Assembly (NCBI RefSeq): GCF_900102635.1
Contig: NZ_FMZQ01000003.1
Coordinates: 62,001 to 126,000, forward strand
Source: Ectopseudomonas chengduensis
Lineage (GTDB): Bacteria; Pseudomonadota; Gammaproteobacteria; Pseudomonadales; Pseudomonadaceae
Direction of reading: 5' to 3'
DNA length: 64,000 nt
Of this stretch, positions 41,884 through 49,279 are shown in pieces. The notes under the pieces were generated by a model. It searched no databases and was not told the origin of the DNA. It saw only the letters and a list, made by a program, of their open reading frames with translations. A program made the translations under genes and the position numbers. Positions within the stretch are counted from its first letter, which is position 1. Each line of letters opens with the position of its first letter.

Positions 41884-41911
41884 TTGTAAGTTTACGTTTA
41901 GCCGTTACAAT
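41884..41911 (+). promoter_or_regulatory. Probable promoter of ffs copy 1
   Basis: TTGTAA (41884-41889) and TACAAT (41906-41911) with a 16-base spacer, placed about 30 bases before the SRP RNA. This is the chromosomal promoter region and lies outside the duplicated repeat, so only copy 1 keeps it. Confidence 0.55.
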
Positions 41912-41934: not shown

Positions 41935-42061
41935 GCAGCGTTATGGTGGCCCTGCCGGTCCCCTCGCAACGATTACCCGTTAACCTGGTCAGGCCCGGAA
42001 GGGAGCAGCCACAGCGGGAACATTGTGTGCCGGGGTGTGGCTGGTGGGGTCCACCTCCAGT
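41935..42061 (+). repeat. Left att repeat (covers whole ffs copy 1)
   Basis: A direct repeat of 49153-49279. Differences are T41981 versus C49199 and G42046 versus A49264. The true crossover core must lie inside this stretch but cannot be placed from one sequence. Confidence 0.85.
41943..42057 (+). ncRNA. ffs: Signal recognition particle RNA (4.5S), copy 1
   Basis: The bacterial small SRP RNA. GGTGGCCC near the 5' end pairs with GGGTCCACC at the 3' end. The conserved apical part is present: GGTCAGGCCCGGAAGGGAGC (GGAA tetraloop and symmetric-loop bases), followed by AGCAGCC. It scaffolds Ffh for co-translational protein targeting. Ends are estimated from the terminal stem. Copy 1 retains the chromosomal promoter region. 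Confidence 0.93.
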
Positions 42062-42108
42062 GACATAAGTCATTGATTCTGAAGGGTTTTTCACTCCATT
42101 CCACGCAG

Positions 42109-42128
42109 TGGTACAAGGAGTGATACAT
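42109..42128. promoter_or_regulatory. Putative integrase arm sites, left end
   Basis: TGGTACAA (42109-42116) and TGATACAT (42121-42128) lie between the left att repeat and the integrase start. The same TGRTACAA motif occurs three times near the right end (48963-48970 inverted, 48997-49004, 49021-49028). Short repeats near both att ends are the usual form of tyrosine-integrase arm sites. The motifs here overlap the integrase ribosome site, which would allow self-repression. Confidence 0.5.
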
Positions 42129-42130
42129 CC

Positions 42131-43519
42131 GTGTCTACTGTCCCGTCTTACCTCCTCCTGTCGCGCCATTCGGTCTTCTATTTCCGTATCGTGGTGCCTG
42201 AAGTCATTCGCCCTTTGTTCCCTCAACGGGAGATACGCAGGTCGCTCCAGACGCGCTGCCGTAGGGAGGCGTTGATCCGTGGGCGTGAGCTTCTGCTGCA
42301 GGCCCAGCGACTGTTCACTGAGGCATTCCAGGGGCGTCGGCCATCGTTGGACCTCCTGATCGGTGCCTGGGAGGCGGGTGGGAAGCGCGTCGCTAGCTGG
42401 GCCTCCTGGCTGCGCCAGCAGCAGTTGGTTAGTACCTTCGAGGCCGTGATAGCTAATCCTAGGGCGCAGCCGAGCAGGGGGCCGCAGAAGGCCAATACGG
42501 TCCCCATTCGTGACGAGCCGCCGCTGGCCCCATTGTTCTCCAAAGTCGTTGACGAATACCTACGTCAGCAAGCTCGGGAAGGTGTCTCTACCAAGACCCT
42601 GGACGACAAGCGGGCAATGGCTTCCCTGTTTGTCCGCGTCATCGGAGACCACCCTATAAACTTCATCACCCGCAAGGAGACACAGCAGTTCCGGGAGACC
42701 GCGTTGAAGCTGCCGCCACGGATACACCAGCTGTCCGTCACGTCCCTGGAACAGGCCATTACCGAGGCCAAGACCACCATCAGTCAGACCACTTTCAACA
42801 ACTACGTGAAGAACCTGACGACGTTCTTCGCCTATGCCATCCGGGAGGGTTACTGCGATAAGAACCCGTTCTACAGGCTTGGCATCAAGCGCAGGGGGAA
42901 GGTGAACCAGGAGCGTTCGGCGTTCACTGAGGCCGACCTGAAGGCCTTGTTCGACAGGAGCAGGTACGCGCCTGCAAATGGGCCTAAGCCGAATCAGTAT
43001 TGGCTACCCCTGTTGGGGCTCTATACGGGCGCACGGCTGAATGAACTGTGTCAGCTGTACCTGGACGATATCGTGGTCGTTAATGGTGTGGACTGTATTC
43101 ACATACGAAAGGGTCGGCCGGACCAGAAGCTCAAGAACGATGGCTCTGAGCGTTTGGTCCCGATTCACTCTCGCCTGAAGGCCCTTGGGTTCATCGAGTA
43201 TGTCGCCAGCCTGCGTGTAGATGGGCATGCGCGGCTATTCCCGGAGCTGACCCTTCACAAGAAGCATGGCTACAGTGCTGCCCCTTCCAAGTGGTTCGCT
43301 CGGGTCAGGGCGCAGCTGGGCTTTGAGGGGAAGAAGGACTTCCATAGCTTCCGCCATACATTCGCAGACCACTTGAAGCAGAAGGGGGTTTCTGAGGCGC
43401 TGGTCGGCGGTGTACTGGGGCATCAGACAGGCGGGATAACGTTCGGTCGTTACGGGAAAGACTTCAGGCCGGAGGTGCTGGTGCCCGTGGTGGAGCTAGT
43501 CGGCTTGACTGCCTTGTGA
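42131..43519 (+). CDS. Tyrosine recombinase / site-specific integrase
   Basis: A 462-residue phage-type integrase. A SAM-like core-binding domain (about 135-245, FSKVVDEYLRQQAREGVSTK) precedes the catalytic domain with R302 (TGARLNEL), a lysine near 333-335, H405 and R408 (HSFRHTF), H431 (LGHQTGG) and Y441. GTG 42131 has AAGGAG ten bases upstream. It sits 69 bases inside the left att repeat and reads away from it, as usual for integrases of RNA-gene-inserted elements. The 3' end overlaps the convergent gene by 24 bases. Confidence 0.93.
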   Translation: MSTVPSYLLLSRHSVFYFRIVVPEVIRPLFPQREIRRSLQTRCRREALIRGRELLLQAQRLFTEAFQGRRPSLDLLIGAWEAGGKRVASWASWLRQQQLVSTFEAVIANPRAQPSRGPQKANTVPIRDEPPLAPLFSKVVDEYLRQQAREGVSTKTLDDKRAMASLFVRVIGDHPINFITRKETQQFRETALKLPPRIHQLSVTSLEQAITEAKTTISQTTFNNYVKNLTTFFAYAIREGYCDKNPFYRLGIKRRGKVNQERSAFTEADLKALFDRSRYAPANGPKPNQYWLPLLGLYTGARLNELCQLYLDDIVVVNGVDCIHIRKGRPDQKLKNDGSERLVPIHSRLKALGFIEYVASLRVDGHARLFPELTLHKKHGYSAAPSKWFARVRAQLGFEGKKDFHSFRHTFADHLKQKGVSEALVGGVLGHQTGGITFGRYGKDFRPEVLVPVVELVGLTAL

Positions 43520-44215
43520 AGCCAGGCATTGTCGGCAATTGATTGCGATACTGATGACGGCGGCCGGTGGTCGGGCCTGTTCCGGGACACTCCAGCCTTC
43601 TTCTTCGTCGAAGCCATAATCCGCTGCCGTGTGCCTATGGTCGCTCTGCAGTTCGATGATCTGGACAGCCTCCAAGTGGAGAATTAAGCCGGCCATACCG
43701 ATAGCAGAGATGAAGTACGGCAAAGCCTCAAAGGCAACGATACCTACAGTGCCGTCACAAATCTCCGGCAACTTGCCTGTCAGCAGTTTGCCCTTCGCGT
43801 CGAAGAGGGCCGGTCGGCGCTTCCGCGTATATGTCATACCGCTGTCCACGGAGGTGCCACTAGCCTTCATCTTGAAGTTGAAGATCAGGTTGCCGGTCGG
43901 CTCCTCGGTTTCCTTGTCGTACTCGACGCTGAACAGGTCATTGACCTTCAGCTCTTTCAGCTTCTTGCGCTGCTCGACCTTCAAGCCGGCGAAGCCTTCT
44001 TGACCTTCAGCGATGGCTTGATCCAGGAGCGGTGCCAGGGTCTTCAGTAGGGGCTGTGCAGCCTCCTCGCTCAGGATGACGCCGACCTTGTATTGGCCAT
44101 CCGGGTTCGGGAAGGCTTCGGTGCCGTAGTCGGGCTTGTCGAGGGCGGGGAAGCGGAAGACGCCACGCGGGGTGCGGGCTTTCAGGATGGTGCGTTTCTT
44201 CTTGTCGGTGGACAT
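43496..44215 (-). CDS. Phage-like single-stranded DNA-binding protein (gp2.5/DUF2815-like)
   Basis: A 239-residue acidic protein. The N-terminal KKRTILKARTPRGVFRFPAL, then GQYKVGVILSEEAAQPLL, and the middle VNDLFSVEYDKETEEPTGNL, recall the OB-fold ssDNA-binding proteins of T7-like and related phages. The C-terminus has an acidic run (FDEEEGW) but then continues, so it is not a classical acidic tip. ATG 44215 is chosen over an open upstream extension. It is the last gene of the leftward block with RNase HI. Family assignment is by pattern memory only. Confidence 0.5.
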   Translation of the reverse strand: MSTDKKKRTILKARTPRGVFRFPALDKPDYGTEAFPNPDGQYKVGVILSEEAAQPLLKTLAPLLDQAIAEGQEGFAGLKVEQRKKLKELKVNDLFSVEYDKETEEPTGNLIFNFKMKASGTSVDSGMTYTRKRRPALFDAKGKLLTGKLPEICDGTVGIVAFEALPYFISAIGMAGLILHLEAVQIIELQSDHRHTAADYGFDEEEGWSVPEQARPPAAVISIAINCRQCLASQGSQAD

Positions 44216-44347
44216 GTAGGTACTCAGGTATGGATTTGTTCGAGGGCTTCTAGGCCGCGCTTGGTCAGGTCGACCAGAAAACAGCAGGGGGGAAGGCACG
44301 CCCGTGCGAACCTTCCTGGGGATGGCTCTGCAGGGCGTGATAGCGGG

Positions 44348-44851
44348 TTAGACCATGGATGTTTCTTCAGCCGGAATCAGCTTCCGGTGCGACTTCTGGA
44401 ACTGTGCAGCCTTGGCCGCCAGGGCGTCGACATGTTCATTCTCGGCGTGGCCGCTGTGCCCCTTGACCCAGTGGGCGGTGACGTTGCACTGGCCGAGCAG
44501 GGTATCGATGACCTGCCATAGGTCGGTATTCTCGACGGGCTTCTTATCAGACTTCCTCCAGCCCCTGGATTTCCAGCCTGGCAGCCATTCGTTGATGCCG
44601 AGGACTACGTACTTGCTGTCGGTGTAGAGGTCGACCACTGCAGGCTTCTTGATGATCTTCAGGGCCTCGATTGCAGCGGTCAGTTCAGCGCGTTGGTTGG
44701 TCGGATGGTGGCCGTCGCCCAGTGGGCCTGCGGCTTCCATGGTGGCGCCTTCAGGGTTGCGGACAAGGACTCCCCAGCCAGCCCTGGCGATGAGGCTGCC
44801 GTTGTTGATACAGGAGCCGTCGGTGAAGGCGGTGTAGGTACGTGCGGTCAT
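44348..44851 (-). CDS. Ribonuclease HI
   Basis: A 167-residue RNase H that cuts RNA in RNA-DNA hybrids. The catalytic set is D11 (TAFTDGSC), E56 (NQRAELTA), D78 (LYTDSKYV) and D142 (NEHVDALA), with H132 in the KGHSGH loop. The basic handle WLPGWKSRGWRKSDKKPV is present as in E. coli type. ATG 44851 has GAGGAAC upstream. It is an element-borne second RNase HI, next to the ssDNA-binding gene; a replication or primer-removal role is suggested (inference). Confidence 0.92.
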   Translation of the reverse strand: MTARTYTAFTDGSCINNGSLIARAGWGVLVRNPEGATMEAAGPLGDGHHPTNQRAELTAAIEALKIIKKPAVVDLYTDSKYVVLGINEWLPGWKSRGWRKSDKKPVENTDLWQVIDTLLGQCNVTAHWVKGHSGHAENEHVDALAAKAAQFQKSHRKLIPAEETSMV

Positions 44852-45243
44852 GTGGTGTGTTCCTCGATGGTGAATTTTGGGTGCAACCTTCCCGGCATCC
44901 TCAGCGGAGGGCGCCTGGCGACTGGTGGGGGATAGGACGAGCAGGTTGGAGCGGACCAATTCCCGACAGAGATATAGGTGGTTCACTGGTCCATTTGGGA
45001 TGCATCTTTCAATGCAGCCTTGGGAGCGTTATGTCAGGGGTGGTCGTGGAGGGCGGTAGTAGCGCAGCTGCTGTCGGCTTTCCGAAGAGGCCGACCAAGG
45101 AAAAAGACCAAGGAGGACGGACAGAGGTGGGTAGTCCTTAGTCCATCCTCACTTCATTGTTAATGGTCAGGCTTTCCTTGTTCAGACAGTTGATGCGCGA
45201 CTGCCCTGCAAGCATCTTTCTGGGGTATGGCTACTGTCTGAGG
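44852..45243. other. Gap of 392 bases inside the element
   Basis: No gene is well supported. One short leftward frame (45215 to 45138) could encode 25 residues starting MLAGQSRINCLNKESL with a weak ribosome site. The rest may be a leader for RNase HI. No clear hairpin terminator was seen. Confidence 0.4.
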
Positions 45244-45963
45244 TCAGAGGCATAGCCGATCAAGTTCGGCGTCGGGCTTGACGGTTGGGGCATCGTTTGC
45301 TGCTGGTCGTTGGGCCATATGGCCGAGTCGTCCTTGAAGTAGTTCAGCAGTCTCAGCGTGCCGTTGGCACTTGATCTCGACAGGTTCGGGGGACGCTTGC
45401 TTGAACGCAAGGCTGACCAGCTCCGTGAAAGCGTGTTTCCTGGATGCACTCGGGAAGAGGGACATGAACTCGGAGACATACTCCTGGGCTCGGTCGTGGA
45501 GGTATCCGGCCATGCTGACCAGCGTATCGTTGGCAGCAACGGGGGCCTGTCGAGGAAGCCACTCGGGAATGAACAACGCTTCTTTGCCTTTGGCAGAGGC
45601 TGCTTTCGTGACCTGCTTCTTCAGGTACTGATACTGGGAGTCCGTCATGTCGAGCATCCACGTCCGCCTATCGCGGTCCAGGCGAAGACCATACAATTCA
45701 CGCAAGACCGGCCACATCTCAGAGCGACGTACCCCGCCTGGTCGTGTGCTCAACTTCACCAACTCGGCAATGGCAGCGGCGCGTGTCATTGTTACCTGAT
45801 GCTCAAGAACCAGTGGATTGTCATCCTTGGTCTCCTTCACTTCTTGCTTGATCTTGCGTATCTGGCGTCGGGAGAGTTTGGTCTGCTCCTCAATGGCGCG
45901 TTCGGAGGCTTTGGTCTGCAGTAGCTGGATGACCTGCTGCTTCTGGCTATCGGTCGGCCTCAT
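45244..45963 (-). CDS. Hypothetical protein with N-terminal helix-turn-helix-like region
   Basis: A 239-residue protein. Residues 1-42 (SQKQQVIQLLQTKASERAIEE, then QTKLSRRQIRKIKQEV) look like a resolvase/Hin-type helix-turn-helix. The rest is helical with no family I can name. It overlaps the small gene upstream by four bases (45960-45963), so the two are coupled. Likely a regulator or replication accessory of the element (inference). Confidence 0.65.
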   Translation of the reverse strand: MRPTDSQKQQVIQLLQTKASERAIEEQTKLSRRQIRKIKQEVKETKDDNPLVLEHQVTMTRAAAIAELVKLSTRPGGVRRSEMWPVLRELYGLRLDRDRRTWMLDMTDSQYQYLKKQVTKAASAKGKEALFIPEWLPRQAPVAANDTLVSMAGYLHDRAQEYVSEFMSLFPSASRKHAFTELVSLAFKQASPEPVEIKCQRHAETAELLQGRLGHMAQRPAANDAPTVKPDAELDRLCL

Positions 45964-46244
45964 TGTGCTCGCCTCCCGGTCTCCAGGATGGACGTGGCAT
46001 TGGGCCGTCTGACGATGGGACCGAGGGCGAGCCAGCGAGGCTCCTCACGGTCGCTCCGGGCCAAGTCCAGGAGGTCGTCATCCTCCCAGGACAAGCCCGC
46101 TGTAAGGGCCAGCTCCATGGCTTCAGCCAGGCGTGTGTCGCGGCACTTCTTCTTGCCCAAGGCGCAGGCCAGGGTGGTCAGTCGGTCGATGTGGTCAGGG
46201 CGCAGGTGCAGGTTCAACCGCACCAGCTTGGGGGTGGTGTTCAT
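45960..46244 (-). CDS. Small basic/acidic hypothetical protein, possible ribbon-helix-helix
   Basis: A 94-residue protein beginning MNTTPKLVRLNLHLRPDHID. The beta-strand-like LVRLNLHL followed by helices RLTTLACALGKKK resembles ribbon-helix-helix copy-control or antitoxin proteins, but the match is not firm. It is the first gene of a leftward pair and lies just downstream of the tandem repeats at 46398-46522, which might be its operator. Confidence 0.6.
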   Translation of the reverse strand: MNTTPKLVRLNLHLRPDHIDRLTTLACALGKKKCRDTRLAEAMELALTAGLSWEDDDLLDLARSDREEPRWLALGPIVRRPNATSILETGRRAQ

Positions 46245-46397
46245 TGGATCGAAGTCCTTAGTGATAGAGCGAACGCAAGCGCCCCGCCTGGAGGGCTCCG
46301 GGCAGGGTGTGTTGTGGTCGTCGTTGATGGGAGGTGTAGTGGAGGGCGCTCTCCAGCCGTTGGAGTGAGGAGCGATGCGCCCAGGTTTACTATGTAT

Positions 46398-46522
46398 GGC
46401 CGTAAATCAAAATCGACTTACTGCAGGCCTTTGCGCTGGTTGTTCATTGGGGTGGCCGTAAATGGCCAGGAGGGGCTGCAGGGGCTGTGGCTGGTTGTCC
46501 AATGGGGGGGCCGTAAAAGGCC
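46398..46522. repeat. Tandem repeats with GGCCGTAAA every 55-56 bases
   Basis: GGCCGTAAA occurs at 46398-46406, 46454-46462 and 46509-46517. The last two belong to 47-bp units (46421-46467 and 46476-46522) that agree at 37 of 47 positions and share CTGCAGG, CTGGTTGT and GGCCGTAAANGGCC. The whole gap 46245-46624 holds no gene. The repeats may be iterons of an origin or operators for the flanking regulators. Confidence 0.65.
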
Positions 46523-46624
46523 TGCACGAGCACCGTGAGGGTGGCCCAGGTCGACGGTGGTCATTGGCCAGGCGCTCGTCGTGGCCTGCTCCTAGAGCCG
46601 CCTGGCTTGCTGCTGGAGTGGCGC

Positions 46625-47203
46625 TCAGGCCTCGACCGGGTGTGCCCTACAGGCCCGCTTCACGGTGGCCGTAGAGACGCCCCAGTGGTCGGCAGTGGCC
46701 TGTATGCTGGCGCCGTTCTCCTTCCTCCAGGAGGCGATAGCCGCGTCGTCGTGCTGCTTGGGGGCGCCCAGCTTGCGACCGTCCTGCCTGGCCTTCTCGA
46801 TCCCCGCCATTTGCCTGGCCTTGATGTTCTCCCGCTCCAGCTCGGCGACCCCGGCCAGTAGGGTGAGCATGAGCTTGCCAGTGGGCATTGATAGGTCGAA
46901 GCCTTCACGCATGGATACGACGGTGACGCCCTTGGCCTTCAGTGCCTCGACTGTCTCCAGGACGTCGATGGTGTTGCGCCCCAGGCGGTCGATGGCTGCG
47001 ACGATGACGGTGTCGCCCTTCCTGGCGAAGGTGAACAACGCCTTGAATCCTGTCCGCTCCAGCGCCTTGGTGGTGCCGCTGGTGGCCTCGTCGGTGAACC
47101 ATCCATCGTCGCTGACCTTGTAGCGTTGCCCGATGGCGTGGCGCTGAGCCTCGACTGACTGGCCGTCGCTACTGACGCGGGTATAGGCGAGGATGGTGGT
47201 CAT
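46625..47203 (-). CDS. Serine recombinase (resolvase/invertase family)
   Basis: A 192-residue small serine recombinase. The N-terminal TTILAYTRVSSDGQSVEAQR carries the nucleophile S11; further catalytic residues lie in AIDRLGRNTIDVLETV. A long E-helix (LLAGVAELERENIKARQ) and a C-terminal helix-turn-helix (ADHWGVSTATVKRACRAHP) follow. ATG 47203 has GGAG upstream; ATG 47227 is possible. It is probably a multimer resolver for the circular form of the element (inference). Confidence 0.92.
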   Translation of the reverse strand: MTTILAYTRVSSDGQSVEAQRHAIGQRYKVSDDGWFTDEATSGTTKALERTGFKALFTFARKGDTVIVAAIDRLGRNTIDVLETVEALKAKGVTVVSMREGFDLSMPTGKLMLTLLAGVAELERENIKARQMAGIEKARQDGRKLGAPKQHDDAAIASWRKENGASIQATADHWGVSTATVKRACRAHPVEA

Positions 47204-47540
47204 GGTGCTGGGCTCCGACTGGCTCATAAGGTAGGCTCTCAATCTGCCTTGTGGCTCATTGAAAGTCAACACAATTGAGCCAATCTGCAGGGCTCATTCC
47301 GCCGTGTCGTCGTGAGGTCGCCGGGCTTGGGTCATAAGGTGTACTTCCTGAGCCATCCTCATACCGCCTTCGCGCCGGACAGCAACGTCCTGACGCCGAC
47401 TCTAGAAGGTAGACTTGAACGACGCTTTGACCGTCAATTGCATAGATAGACCAGCCCCCAGGGGGGGAAGTCTGTAAACCACTTTATATTCAAGGCCGAA
47501 CAAATTTTTTCTTTTCAACTTGCCGCCACACGGAGTGCAG
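47204..47540. other. Gap of 337 bases upstream of the resolvase, with a possible res site
   Basis: No gene. TGGCTCA (47252-47258) and TGAGCCA (47276-47282) form an inverted repeat spanning 31 bp around an AT-rich centre, the form of a serine-resolvase binding subsite. Further GGCTCAT motifs lie at 47221 and 47291. Resolvase sites normally lie just upstream of the resolvase gene. Confidence 0.45.
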
Positions 47541-48374
47541 ATGCACACGGAGAACGCAACATGCCCAAACCCCGCACTGGTCGAATTACTCCAAGAGCAA
47601 CTTGAACTGCTACGAGTAGCCCTGTTCGTAGCTACGCAGGGGCCTGCTGAAATGGCAGGAACGCAGTTGCATTGCTCTTTGGAACCCTCCGTCGTCAGCG
47701 CGTCGCAGCCGATAGCAATGTGCGCGGGACAGTCGGTGAGTACGATCCTGCGTTGCCTTGACTGGCGCGGCATTCCAGTAAGAGACCTGTATCCGATTGC
47801 AAGAAGCGCAGTGGAGTCGTTCATCAACGCAGCCTTCCTGGTCTCTCAGGACAACGCCACGTCTGAGCGGGCACTTCGATACGTGAAGTTCGGGTACTGG
47901 AAGCAGCACAACCGAAACGTTGGCGAAGGGCTCTTCAGTCTGAAGCTTTCCTCCAGTGGCTTGCCTGCGGGCTCCACGCCAGCAGAGTTCGAGGAGTTCA
48001 CAGGGAAGGGTCAAGATACCTGGACGAAACTGTCTCTTCCCAGCCGAATCAATCGCGTGGGCCAAGCTGCGGGCAGAAAAGCCGGCAGTCGGCTTCTTGC
48101 CGCTTACGCATTGATCTACTCCGTATCCTCCGAAGTCATCCACGGCTCCCCGTTCGGGGTCAGTTACTTCTACTCTGCCAGGGCACCTGCTTCAGTTGAA
48201 GAGTTTCAAAAAGCTACCGTTCACCAGGTCGAGGACATACTCGTTGCCGTGGCACACGCGGCGGCGGGCTACCTCTCCACGTTTTTCACCTATCAAAGCA
48301 TGGAAGTCGCTGTGGCGGCCGAGCAAGACATCTTCAACAAGCTAATGGCCATCGAAGGAGTAGATCCTCAATAG
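47541..48374 (+). CDS. Hypothetical cargo protein, DUF5677-like
   Basis: A 277-residue mostly helical protein. The central IARSAVESFINAAFLVSQDN with RALRYVKFGYWKQ resembles DUF5677-type proteins, which have a conserved Arg/Glu helix pair and a late His-containing helix (here SSEVIHGSPFG). Function is unknown. ATG 47541 has GGAG upstream; a TTG at 47520 is less likely. Codon use is less GC-biased than in the chromosomal genes. It faces the GNAT gene convergently. Confidence 0.65.
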   Translation: MHTENATCPNPALVELLQEQLELLRVALFVATQGPAEMAGTQLHCSLEPSVVSASQPIAMCAGQSVSTILRCLDWRGIPVRDLYPIARSAVESFINAAFLVSQDNATSERALRYVKFGYWKQHNRNVGEGLFSLKLSSSGLPAGSTPAEFEEFTGKGQDTWTKLSLPSRINRVGQAAGRKAGSRLLAAYALIYSVSSEVIHGSPFGVSYFYSARAPASVEEFQKATVHQVEDILVAVAHAAAGYLSTFFTYQSMEVAVAAEQDIFNKLMAIEGVDPQ

Positions 48375-48478
48375 ACTCCCCTTCGGACGAAGCTGTCGTA
48401 CAATCCCCGCCCTCACACGCAGCTAGAGCCCAAAGGGCGTGGGGCTTGAGGTTTTCACGGGTGTCTCGGCGGTTCGGT

Positions 48479-48928
48479 TCACCGCCGGCCGTGGCGCAGG
48501 TTGCTCATGACGGTGCTGACAGGCGCCAATAGATTTTTCCCTTCTCCGTATCGCACGAAGCCGAACCGGGCCCCGAAGGCCGTGGCGTCAGGGTTCGCCT
48601 GCTCTACGCCGATGTGGGTGTAGGGGACTTCGTCGGCAACCTCGACGAGAAACTGCATTAGTGCTCTGCCGTGGCCTTGCCGCTGGTTCGTGAAGCCAAT
48701 CCTCGACACCACCAGCGTGTCGCTGTTCCATCCGTGCATGGAAGGGGGCGTGACCCGGAAGTAGAGGTCGTACTTGGCTGTCCGTGCATCCACGCTGCAG
48801 CGGGAGATTCCAAGGCGTACTCCTGGTCGTTTGTACCCGAACTGAACCTGTAGGTACTCCGTCAACAACGCGGCGAAAGCACGGGTTCTCTCATTGGCGG
48901 CTTTCAGCATCTCTTCATCGTTGGGCAT
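48479..48928 (-). CDS. GNAT family acetyltransferase-like protein
   Basis: A 149-residue protein. The acetyl-CoA motif A is present as SRIGFTNQRQGHGRALMQFL, followed by a second GNAT-like strand-helix (THIGVEQANPDATAFGARFGF). The N-terminal 60 residues are less conserved. The acceptor is unknown. It is an element-borne gene near the right end. GNAT proteins on islands can be toxins or modifying enzymes, but no partner antitoxin is evident. Confidence 0.72.
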   Translation of the reverse strand: MPNDEEMLKAANERTRAFAALLTEYLQVQFGYKRPGVRLGISRCSVDARTAKYDLYFRVTPPSMHGWNSDTLVVSRIGFTNQRQGHGRALMQFLVEVADEVPYTHIGVEQANPDATAFGARFGFVRYGEGKNLLAPVSTVMSNLRHGRR

Positions 48929-48962
48929 GGGGCGGTTCCGGTATCGATTGGCGTGATGGCTG

Positions 48963-49064
48963 TTGTATCAAGCGAAGCCCGATCCTGTCCCGCAAGTGGT
49001 ACAAAAGGGGGGCAAACAGGTGATACAAAGCGCCTTGTAGGCTGACCCAGGCAGTCGCCTACAA
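48963..49064. promoter_or_regulatory. Putative integrase arm sites and inverted repeat, right end
   Basis: TTGTATCA (48963-48970, inverted TGATACAA), TGGTACAA (48997-49004) and TGATACAA (49021-49028) match the left-end motifs. Then TTGTAGGC (49035-49042) and GCCTACAA (49057-49064) form a perfect 8-bp inverted repeat. TTGTAG and TACAAT within it could also form a promoter with a 19-base spacer pointing to ffs copy 2. Confidence 0.5.
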
Positions 49065-49152
49065 TGGCCTCGATTTCCATTTTTCTGCGTGGTCTGGTGA
49101 AGACCGCTTCAGAGGTGGCGCTGACTCATGAAGGCTCTAGAACGGGCTTTTG

Positions 49153-49279
49153 GCAGCGTTATGGTGGCCCTGCCGGTCCCCTCGCAACGATTACCCGTCA
49201 ACCTGGTCAGGCCCGGAAGGGAGCAGCCACAGCGGGAACATTGTGTGCCGGGGTGTGGCTGGTAGGGTCCACCTCCAGT
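49153..49279 (+). repeat. Right att repeat (covers whole ffs copy 2)
   Basis: A direct repeat of 41935-42061 with two substitutions. It is followed by the chromosomal sequence that leads to the DUF3509-like genes and dnaX. Confidence 0.85.
49161..49275 (+). ncRNA. ffs: Signal recognition particle RNA (4.5S), copy 2
   Basis: A second complete SRP RNA sequence with the same terminal stem and GGAA-capped apical hairpin. Against copy 1 it has C for T at 49199 and A for G at 49264. The latter falls next to the 3' GGGTCCACC strand of the closing stem. It has lost the chromosomal promoter region, so expression would depend on element sequence upstream. Confidence 0.9.

Follow-up and report, generated by a model that had tools for sequence, protein, structure and literature searches.

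How does a mobile element come to be bordered on both sides by a whole copy of the essential RNA gene at which it sits? We address this question in a 64,000-nt stretch of the Ectopseudomonas chengduensis genome (assembly GCF_900102635.1, contig NZ_FMZQ01000003.1, positions 62,001 to 126,000 of the forward strand; hereafter, the window), where two copies of ffs, the gene for the signal recognition particle (SRP) RNA, enclose 7,091 bp of DNA that includes a tyrosine integrase gene. This DNA is almost certainly an integrative element of 7.1 kb targeting ffs, its integrase belongs to a family whose members stand directly beside ffs, and the duplicated ffs follows the host, not the element, in all 17 family members in which both copies are visible.

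An insertion between two complete ffs genes

The left (41935–42061, plus strand) and right (49153–49279, plus strand) ffs copies form a direct repeat of 127 nt with a start-to-start spacing of 7,218 bp and 125 of 127 positions identical (98%), the differences lying at repeat positions 47 (41981 T, 49199 C) and 112 (42046 G, 49264 A). Both match the Rfam model RF00169 across model positions 1–97 (41953–42049, 76.7 bits; 49171–49267, 75.9 bits), and no other ffs matches are present in the 5.41-Mb assembly. The repeat is not a product of chance, because no other repeat of the 10-kb region exceeds a 55-nt tandem pair of 75% identity. The G+C content of the element is 59.0%, compared with 65.1% and 61.7% in its two 10-kb flanks. 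The integrase gene (42131–43519, plus strand) starts 69 bp past the left ffs, reads inward, and encodes 462 aa with DUF6538, SAM-like, and catalytic domains (PF00589, residues 266–441, E = 8.9e-15). The repeat search and the two profile matches thus reproduce the outline given by a first-pass annotation of the sequence, namely two complete ffs copies with an integrase reading inward from the left one.

That annotation had proposed a search for an empty site in relatives, and such sites exist. Searched in 392 relatives, the left flank hit 37 other genomes at E ≤ 1e-100, with 92–98% identity in five (G238, G114, G099, G213, and G100). Against a query in which the window flanks were joined through one ffs, G238 aligned over 2,400 bp without a gap (99.4%), and G114, G213, and G100 aligned through the site at 93.6–97.6% with 1–4 gap openings; the G099 alignment stops at the end of ffs, and G012 provides a more distant empty site. 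None of the five genomes has an integrase match, which 44 of the 398 genomes searched in the genus do have. The element is therefore an insertion. The single ffs of G238 equals the right copy of the window at 127/127 positions; G114 carries T at position 47 of its ffs and A at 112. Among named records, P. chengduensis strain 402 is nearest, with flanks at 95.5% and 97.7%.

A family of integrases tied to ffs

The genus search (398 genomes, E ≤ 1e-30) matched 44 genomes, the window's included, at 48 places, and ffs sequence lay near the integrase in all 30 loci that were fetched, the 18 weaker places being outside this count. In six of these loci (68–100% integrase identity), ffs, or a half of it in one case, precedes the integrase, and the remaining 24 belong to a second integrase group (35–39%), in which a 3′ ffs piece begins between positions 22 and 78. 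Named genomes were scanned as well and yielded 24 loci, of which three from Bacteroidales (23–43% over part of the query) were left out; all 21 examined (50–97% in the best segment) have ffs sequence directly before the integrase. Together with the window, G221, and G291, these 21 loci make up a family of 24 members, and in each of the 24 the integrase is directly preceded by ffs sequence. The specificity for ffs is thus a property of the family, and the homologues beside other ffs genes that the first-pass annotation had looked to are there. Short names used below are Pchen (L094), Pcomp (L095), Palca (L096), Potit (L098), Pdefl (L099), Pnabe (L100), MIACH (L101), PGPPP3 (L102), Sazot (L103), P818 (L104), Skunm (L106), and PIC25 (L110).

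Both ffs copies are visible in 17 of the 24 members, on one contig in 14 and on different contigs in PIC25, P. defluvii, and PGPPP3. The other seven comprise Pseudomonas sp. ML96 (G316), which has half copies, and six members in which one copy was found: P. lundensis, where the contig ends; P. peli, with an integrase fragment; Neptuniibacter CAU 1671; and P. argentinensis, P. morbosilactucae, and IPO3778, in which the integrase frame is interrupted. A short attachment (att) core was considered for the single-copy members and rejected, as no second same-strand match of at least 13 nt was found at four loci (80 kb of Neptuniibacter CAU 1671, 35.8 kb of P. morbosilactucae, 40 kb of IPO3778, and 13.8 kb of P. 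argentinensis). In the G294/P. peli remnant (L067, L114), one ffs is followed by an integrase fragment and then by the normal right flank, so the left copy alone seems sufficient there. In P. morbosilactucae, a C4 antisense RNA of the phage type (L107, 9340–9426, minus strand) lies about 400 bp before ffs.

Such a picture could in principle arise without the integrase, from a tandem duplication of ffs in the chromosome or as an artefact of assembly, and repeats this long do disrupt assembly, as in ML96, where ffs is present as four half copies on three contigs. The same structure, with homologous ends and integrase, recurs in independent assemblies, including the single-contig genomes G221 and G291, which leaves this explanation barely credible. 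A 6,495-bp contig of ML96 with both ends inside ffs was also considered as an excised circle, a reading that we rejected because four half copies on three contigs are what an assembly break leaves.

The second integrase group shares the target gene with the family, and its 3′ ffs piece lies near the integrase in 24 of 24 loci; it differs in that the integrase occupies the other end, beside the right piece, and in that no complete right copy was seen among the 24. In elements L040, L041, L043–L046, L049, L052, L055, L059, L061, and others of this group, a palindrome-like sequence, GCATGCTTGCATGC, precedes the right ffs piece and is embedded in a degenerate ffs 5′ part. G024, a genome without an integrase match, carries ffs and a 3′ ffs piece 2.4 kb apart (L071, G024:C56:249504-252084), which may be a remnant or an ffs element of a third type.

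Both copies carry the sequence of the host

Left and right copies were compared over 84 aligned positions (31–114) in the 17 pairs. Only two mismatches were found in total (17 × 84), both in the window, whereas copies from different genomes differ by 8.4 per pair on average; none of 20,000 permutations was as low, the lowest total being 64. Because the pairs agree at sites where the hosts vary, the duplicated gene follows its host. Outside the family, five second-group elements and G024 show 1 mismatch in 6 × 52 positions, compared with 2.9 per between-genome pair.

On balance, we favor the explanation that ffs is borne by the element and kept host-like by recombination. The first-pass annotation had offered, as one of two options, that the element acquired a spare ffs; this was nearer the mark, with the amendment that the spare is of the host type in every host. 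A competing account is that of an ordinary RNA-gene island with a narrow host range, whose ffs segment is inherited unchanged and matches the host since each element circulates in one species group. Some integrase clades do follow host groups, as in the fluorescens-type hosts MIACH and P. nabeulensis. Five elements speak against it: Sazot, P818, G291, PIC25, and Skunm have integrase DNA 92–96% identical and reside in hosts whose ffs differs at 5–12 of 84 sites in nine of the ten pairs (0 in the tenth), with left equal to right in each. Donor bases would be expected had the segment been inherited unchanged with the element, and this account is therefore unlikely, though it is the strongest competitor of the one that we favor.

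Comparison with the host gene dnaX cuts both ways. Integrase DNA is closer than dnaX for P818–G291 (95.7% vs 93.0%), P818–PIC25 (92.3% vs 88.2%), G291–PIC25 (93.4% vs 87.9%), G000–Pcomp (96.1% vs 92.3%), and Pchen–Pcomp (96.6% vs 92.1%). It falls below dnaX for G000–Pchen (96.3% vs 98.2%), G000–Palca (78.0% vs 88.2%), and Potit–Pdefl (79.4% vs 85.6%), and it is not closer in 3 of the 6 pairs with both values, which suits a narrow host range and tells against our preferred explanation, since recent transfer is not shown throughout.

Two classes of right end

The right copy is complete in 9 of the 17 members, its outer stem pairing as in the whole gene, and in the other 8 its first 17–30 nt are replaced by sequence that pairs no better than shuffled sequence. 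In a duplex test against shuffles, the replaced copies gave z values of −1.7 to +1.2, the other nine right copies −2.3 to −4.7, and the 17 left copies −2.6 to −5.2. Rfam whole-model matches of 69–75 bits in four right copies had suggested a conserved structure in the replaced 5′ halves, a reading dismissed because of those z values. PGPPP3 is counted among the nine, but a contig end truncates its second copy, and upstream of that copy lies sequence similar to the right end of second-group elements, so its class is uncertain. The whole gene at the far end, which the first-pass annotation had singled out as exceptional, is thus indeed complete in the window; it is less exceptional than that, being found in 9 of 17 members, and islands between identical SRP RNAs have been published (PMC6299553).

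The right-end class clusters on the integrase tree (21 rows), with 2 changes against a shuffled mean of 5.9–6.0 and 1 of 500 shuffles as low; Pontibacterium and Neptuniibacter form long branches on this tree. Short repeats follow the integrase as well. The window has a pair of GTGRTACA repeats near each end (42108–42127 and 48996–49027, both plus strand), and across the family such repeats agree between both element ends and vary with the integrase lineage, being GTGRTACA in the window clade, GTGATCCA in the second clade, and TAGTACAC in Pontibacterium. Because the repeats at both ends change with the integrase lineage, they are probably integrase arm sites.

Where in ffs the exchange probably takes place

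An integrase-driven exchange inside ffs is likely, and its position can be bracketed. In the eight relatives of the replaced class, homology between the copies is lost before position 18–31. The two copies of the window differ at base 112 (left G, right A), and all four syntenic element-free relatives have A; the 3′ part of the left copy is therefore probably the element's, which places the exchange before 112. The left tail of G221 diverges from its right copy after about position 113. Position 47 is uninformative because hosts vary there. These limits make it probable that the exchange falls between about 31 and 111 of ffs, and they do not support, in the form given, the other option of the first-pass annotation, a crossover in the 5′ part of the gene. 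The right piece of second-group elements starts at position 78 in the most extreme case (L038), a hint, though from another integrase group, of a core further 3′.

In the coordinates of the window repeat, the block shared by the two copies begins at about −24 in P. nabeulensis, −6 in P. alcaligenes, 1 in the window, 9 in MIACH, 18 in two Stutzerimonas elements, and 31 in P818 and G291. A 5′ limit ranging from about −24 to +31, with the 3′ limit constant at the gene end, would also be expected if the element brought no ffs at all and integration, or a step tied to it, duplicated the host's own gene, copying about 95–150 bp of the target in a block fixed at the gene 3′ end and variable at its 5′ side; both copies would then originate from the new host in every case. 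In agreement with this, 16 of the 17 pairs show no donor-type base among the 84 positions. Three observations do not: the left copy of the window has a non-host base at 112, the two tails of G221 differ, and the right-end class is inherited with the integrase lineage. Moreover, tyrosine integrases are not known to produce duplications of this kind. We consider this account improbable; if true, it would mean that a tyrosine-integrase element can duplicate a long stretch of its target.

A model for insertion and renewal of ffs

Under the explanation that we favor, the element's own tyrosine integrase would insert it by a crossover inside ffs, and a whole ffs would serve as the attachment site of the circular form. 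Exchange at a core within about 31–111 would make the left copy host-derived at its 5′ part and element-derived at its 3′ part, and the right copy the converse. The left copy would stay on the host promoter, for which a promoter scan gave the candidate TTGTAA-16-TACAAT (41884–41911, plus strand) on the host side, also present before ffs in element-free relatives, and the essential gene would be preserved. In the window lineage, the 5′ half at the element end would be complete and accompanied by a promoter-like site, leaving a whole right copy; in the sister lineage, a degenerate 5′ half there would leave a 3′ fragment. Sequence comparison points to TTGTAG-19-TACAAT (49035–49065, plus strand) as the site from which the right copy may be read and from which, in the circle, transcription would run across ffs to the integrase gene; GCCTACAATGGCCTCG in its −10 region is invariant in six related elements.

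The two copies are both of the host type, we propose, because homologous recombination renews the element's ffs from the host gene, either by gene conversion between the copies or by capture of host DNA through imprecise excision. The 5′ limits lie where there is no flanking homology, and capture therefore fits better than conversion alone.

Several further points weigh against this model. The upper limit of the exchange comes from the G221 tail and from a single base of the window, possibly a mutation, and the exchange is placed no finer than 31–111. Both sides of any exchange point are host-type in most members, so homogenization must act on both. No circle or circular junction was seen, there being no reads. 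Transcription of the right copy is a prediction, and its promoter-like site, with a 19-nt spacer, gave no match in the promoter scan, which allowed spacers of 16–18.

Directly 3′ of the left ffs lies an inverted repeat (42060–42077, AGTGACATAAGTCATT), and related elements L096, L064, and L101 have inverted repeats at the same place (AGTAACCTAAGTTACT, AATCACATAAGTGATT, and AATCATCTAAGTGATT) in which the symmetry is kept and the letters differ. The repeat is possibly a protein site or an RNA hairpin.

Genes within the element

Eight proteins of the element were scanned against Pfam, PHROGs, and NCBIfam, with smaller open reading frames left out. Besides the integrase, they are a single-stranded DNA-binding protein of the T7 gp2.5 type (43496–44299, minus strand; PF21265, phrog_112), an RNase H (44348–44986, minus; PF00075), a 239-aa protein without a family match that is conserved in several related elements (45244–45963, minus), a 94-aa protein without a family match (45960–46244, minus), a small serine recombinase of the resolvase/invertase type (46625–47272, minus; PF00239, phrog_125), a DUF5677 protein (47520–48374, plus; PF18928), and a possible GNAT acetyltransferase (48479–48928, minus), whose PF00583 score of 20.3 bits is just below the Pfam cut-off of 20.7. 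An imperfect 55-nt tandem pair (75%) occupies 46421–46530, between the 94-aa and serine recombinase genes.

Searches of 13 related elements with tblastn, which covered a limited stretch of Sazot, Skunm, and P. nabeulensis, found the integrase in 13 of 13 and the serine recombinase in 10 (one partial, at a contig end); the latter was not found in P. chengduensis, Pontibacterium, or the stretch of Sazot searched. The other window genes are patchy. Among the eight proteins, no relaxase or conjugation genes, no Tns or Cas proteins, and no PADLOC match to defense systems were detected. Tn7-like transposons reportedly use ffs as a site; they would share the target gene with the window element and differ in the recombinase. 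A phage origin was rejected, as no close integrase was found (IMG/VR, 1 locus at 26%; phages, 1 record at 32%), and so was a plasmid origin (1 plasmid integrase record at 36%, no plasmid DNA match).

Relation to known elements and significance

Islands in P. aeruginosa lying between identical SRP RNAs, taken by their authors to reflect a strong site preference, were reported in 2018 (PMC6299553), and the kind is therefore already known. The likeness lies in a Pseudomonas island between SRP RNA genes, represented in the window by two complete copies; the reported island differs in its size of 19.8 kb and its carbapenemase transposon. The sections of that report on these islands give no description of the integrase, empty sites, right-end classes, or host-tracking, and their comparison with the window element is one of descriptions only. 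Genomic islands in tRNA and tmRNA genes, as outlined in PMC4383910, have a tyrosine integrase by the RNA gene and direct end repeats and leave the target gene whole. The window shares with such islands the integrase at one end, the repeats of the target gene, and the element-free relatives. It differs in its target, ffs, and in the far end: those islands have a displaced gene fragment there, which is absent from the window, where the right copy is complete, and in our family a complete gene is found in 9 of 17 members and a fragment in 8.

In our literature search, PMC6299553 was the only description found of SRP-RNA-flanked islands. A term look-up in the main text of PMC12884075 and PMC12629846 returned no mention of ffs or SRP, and PMC10763512 and PMC10383233, in the passages that name the SRP RNA, mention it merely as a gene of the genome. 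No paper on two right-end classes or on host-tracking was found in this search, most subscription papers being outside it, and we put both forward only tentatively as additions to a known kind of element.

An element's attachment site is usually regarded as a fixed component; in this family, an essential RNA gene fills that role and follows the host in all 17 cases. As ffs is long and variable enough to distinguish element from host, it offers a testable system for how such a site is fitted to new hosts. The gene is a hotspot of integration for at least two integrase groups, which searches confined to tRNA and tmRNA genes would miss, and pseudomonads that carry this element have two complete copies of an essential gene normally present once.

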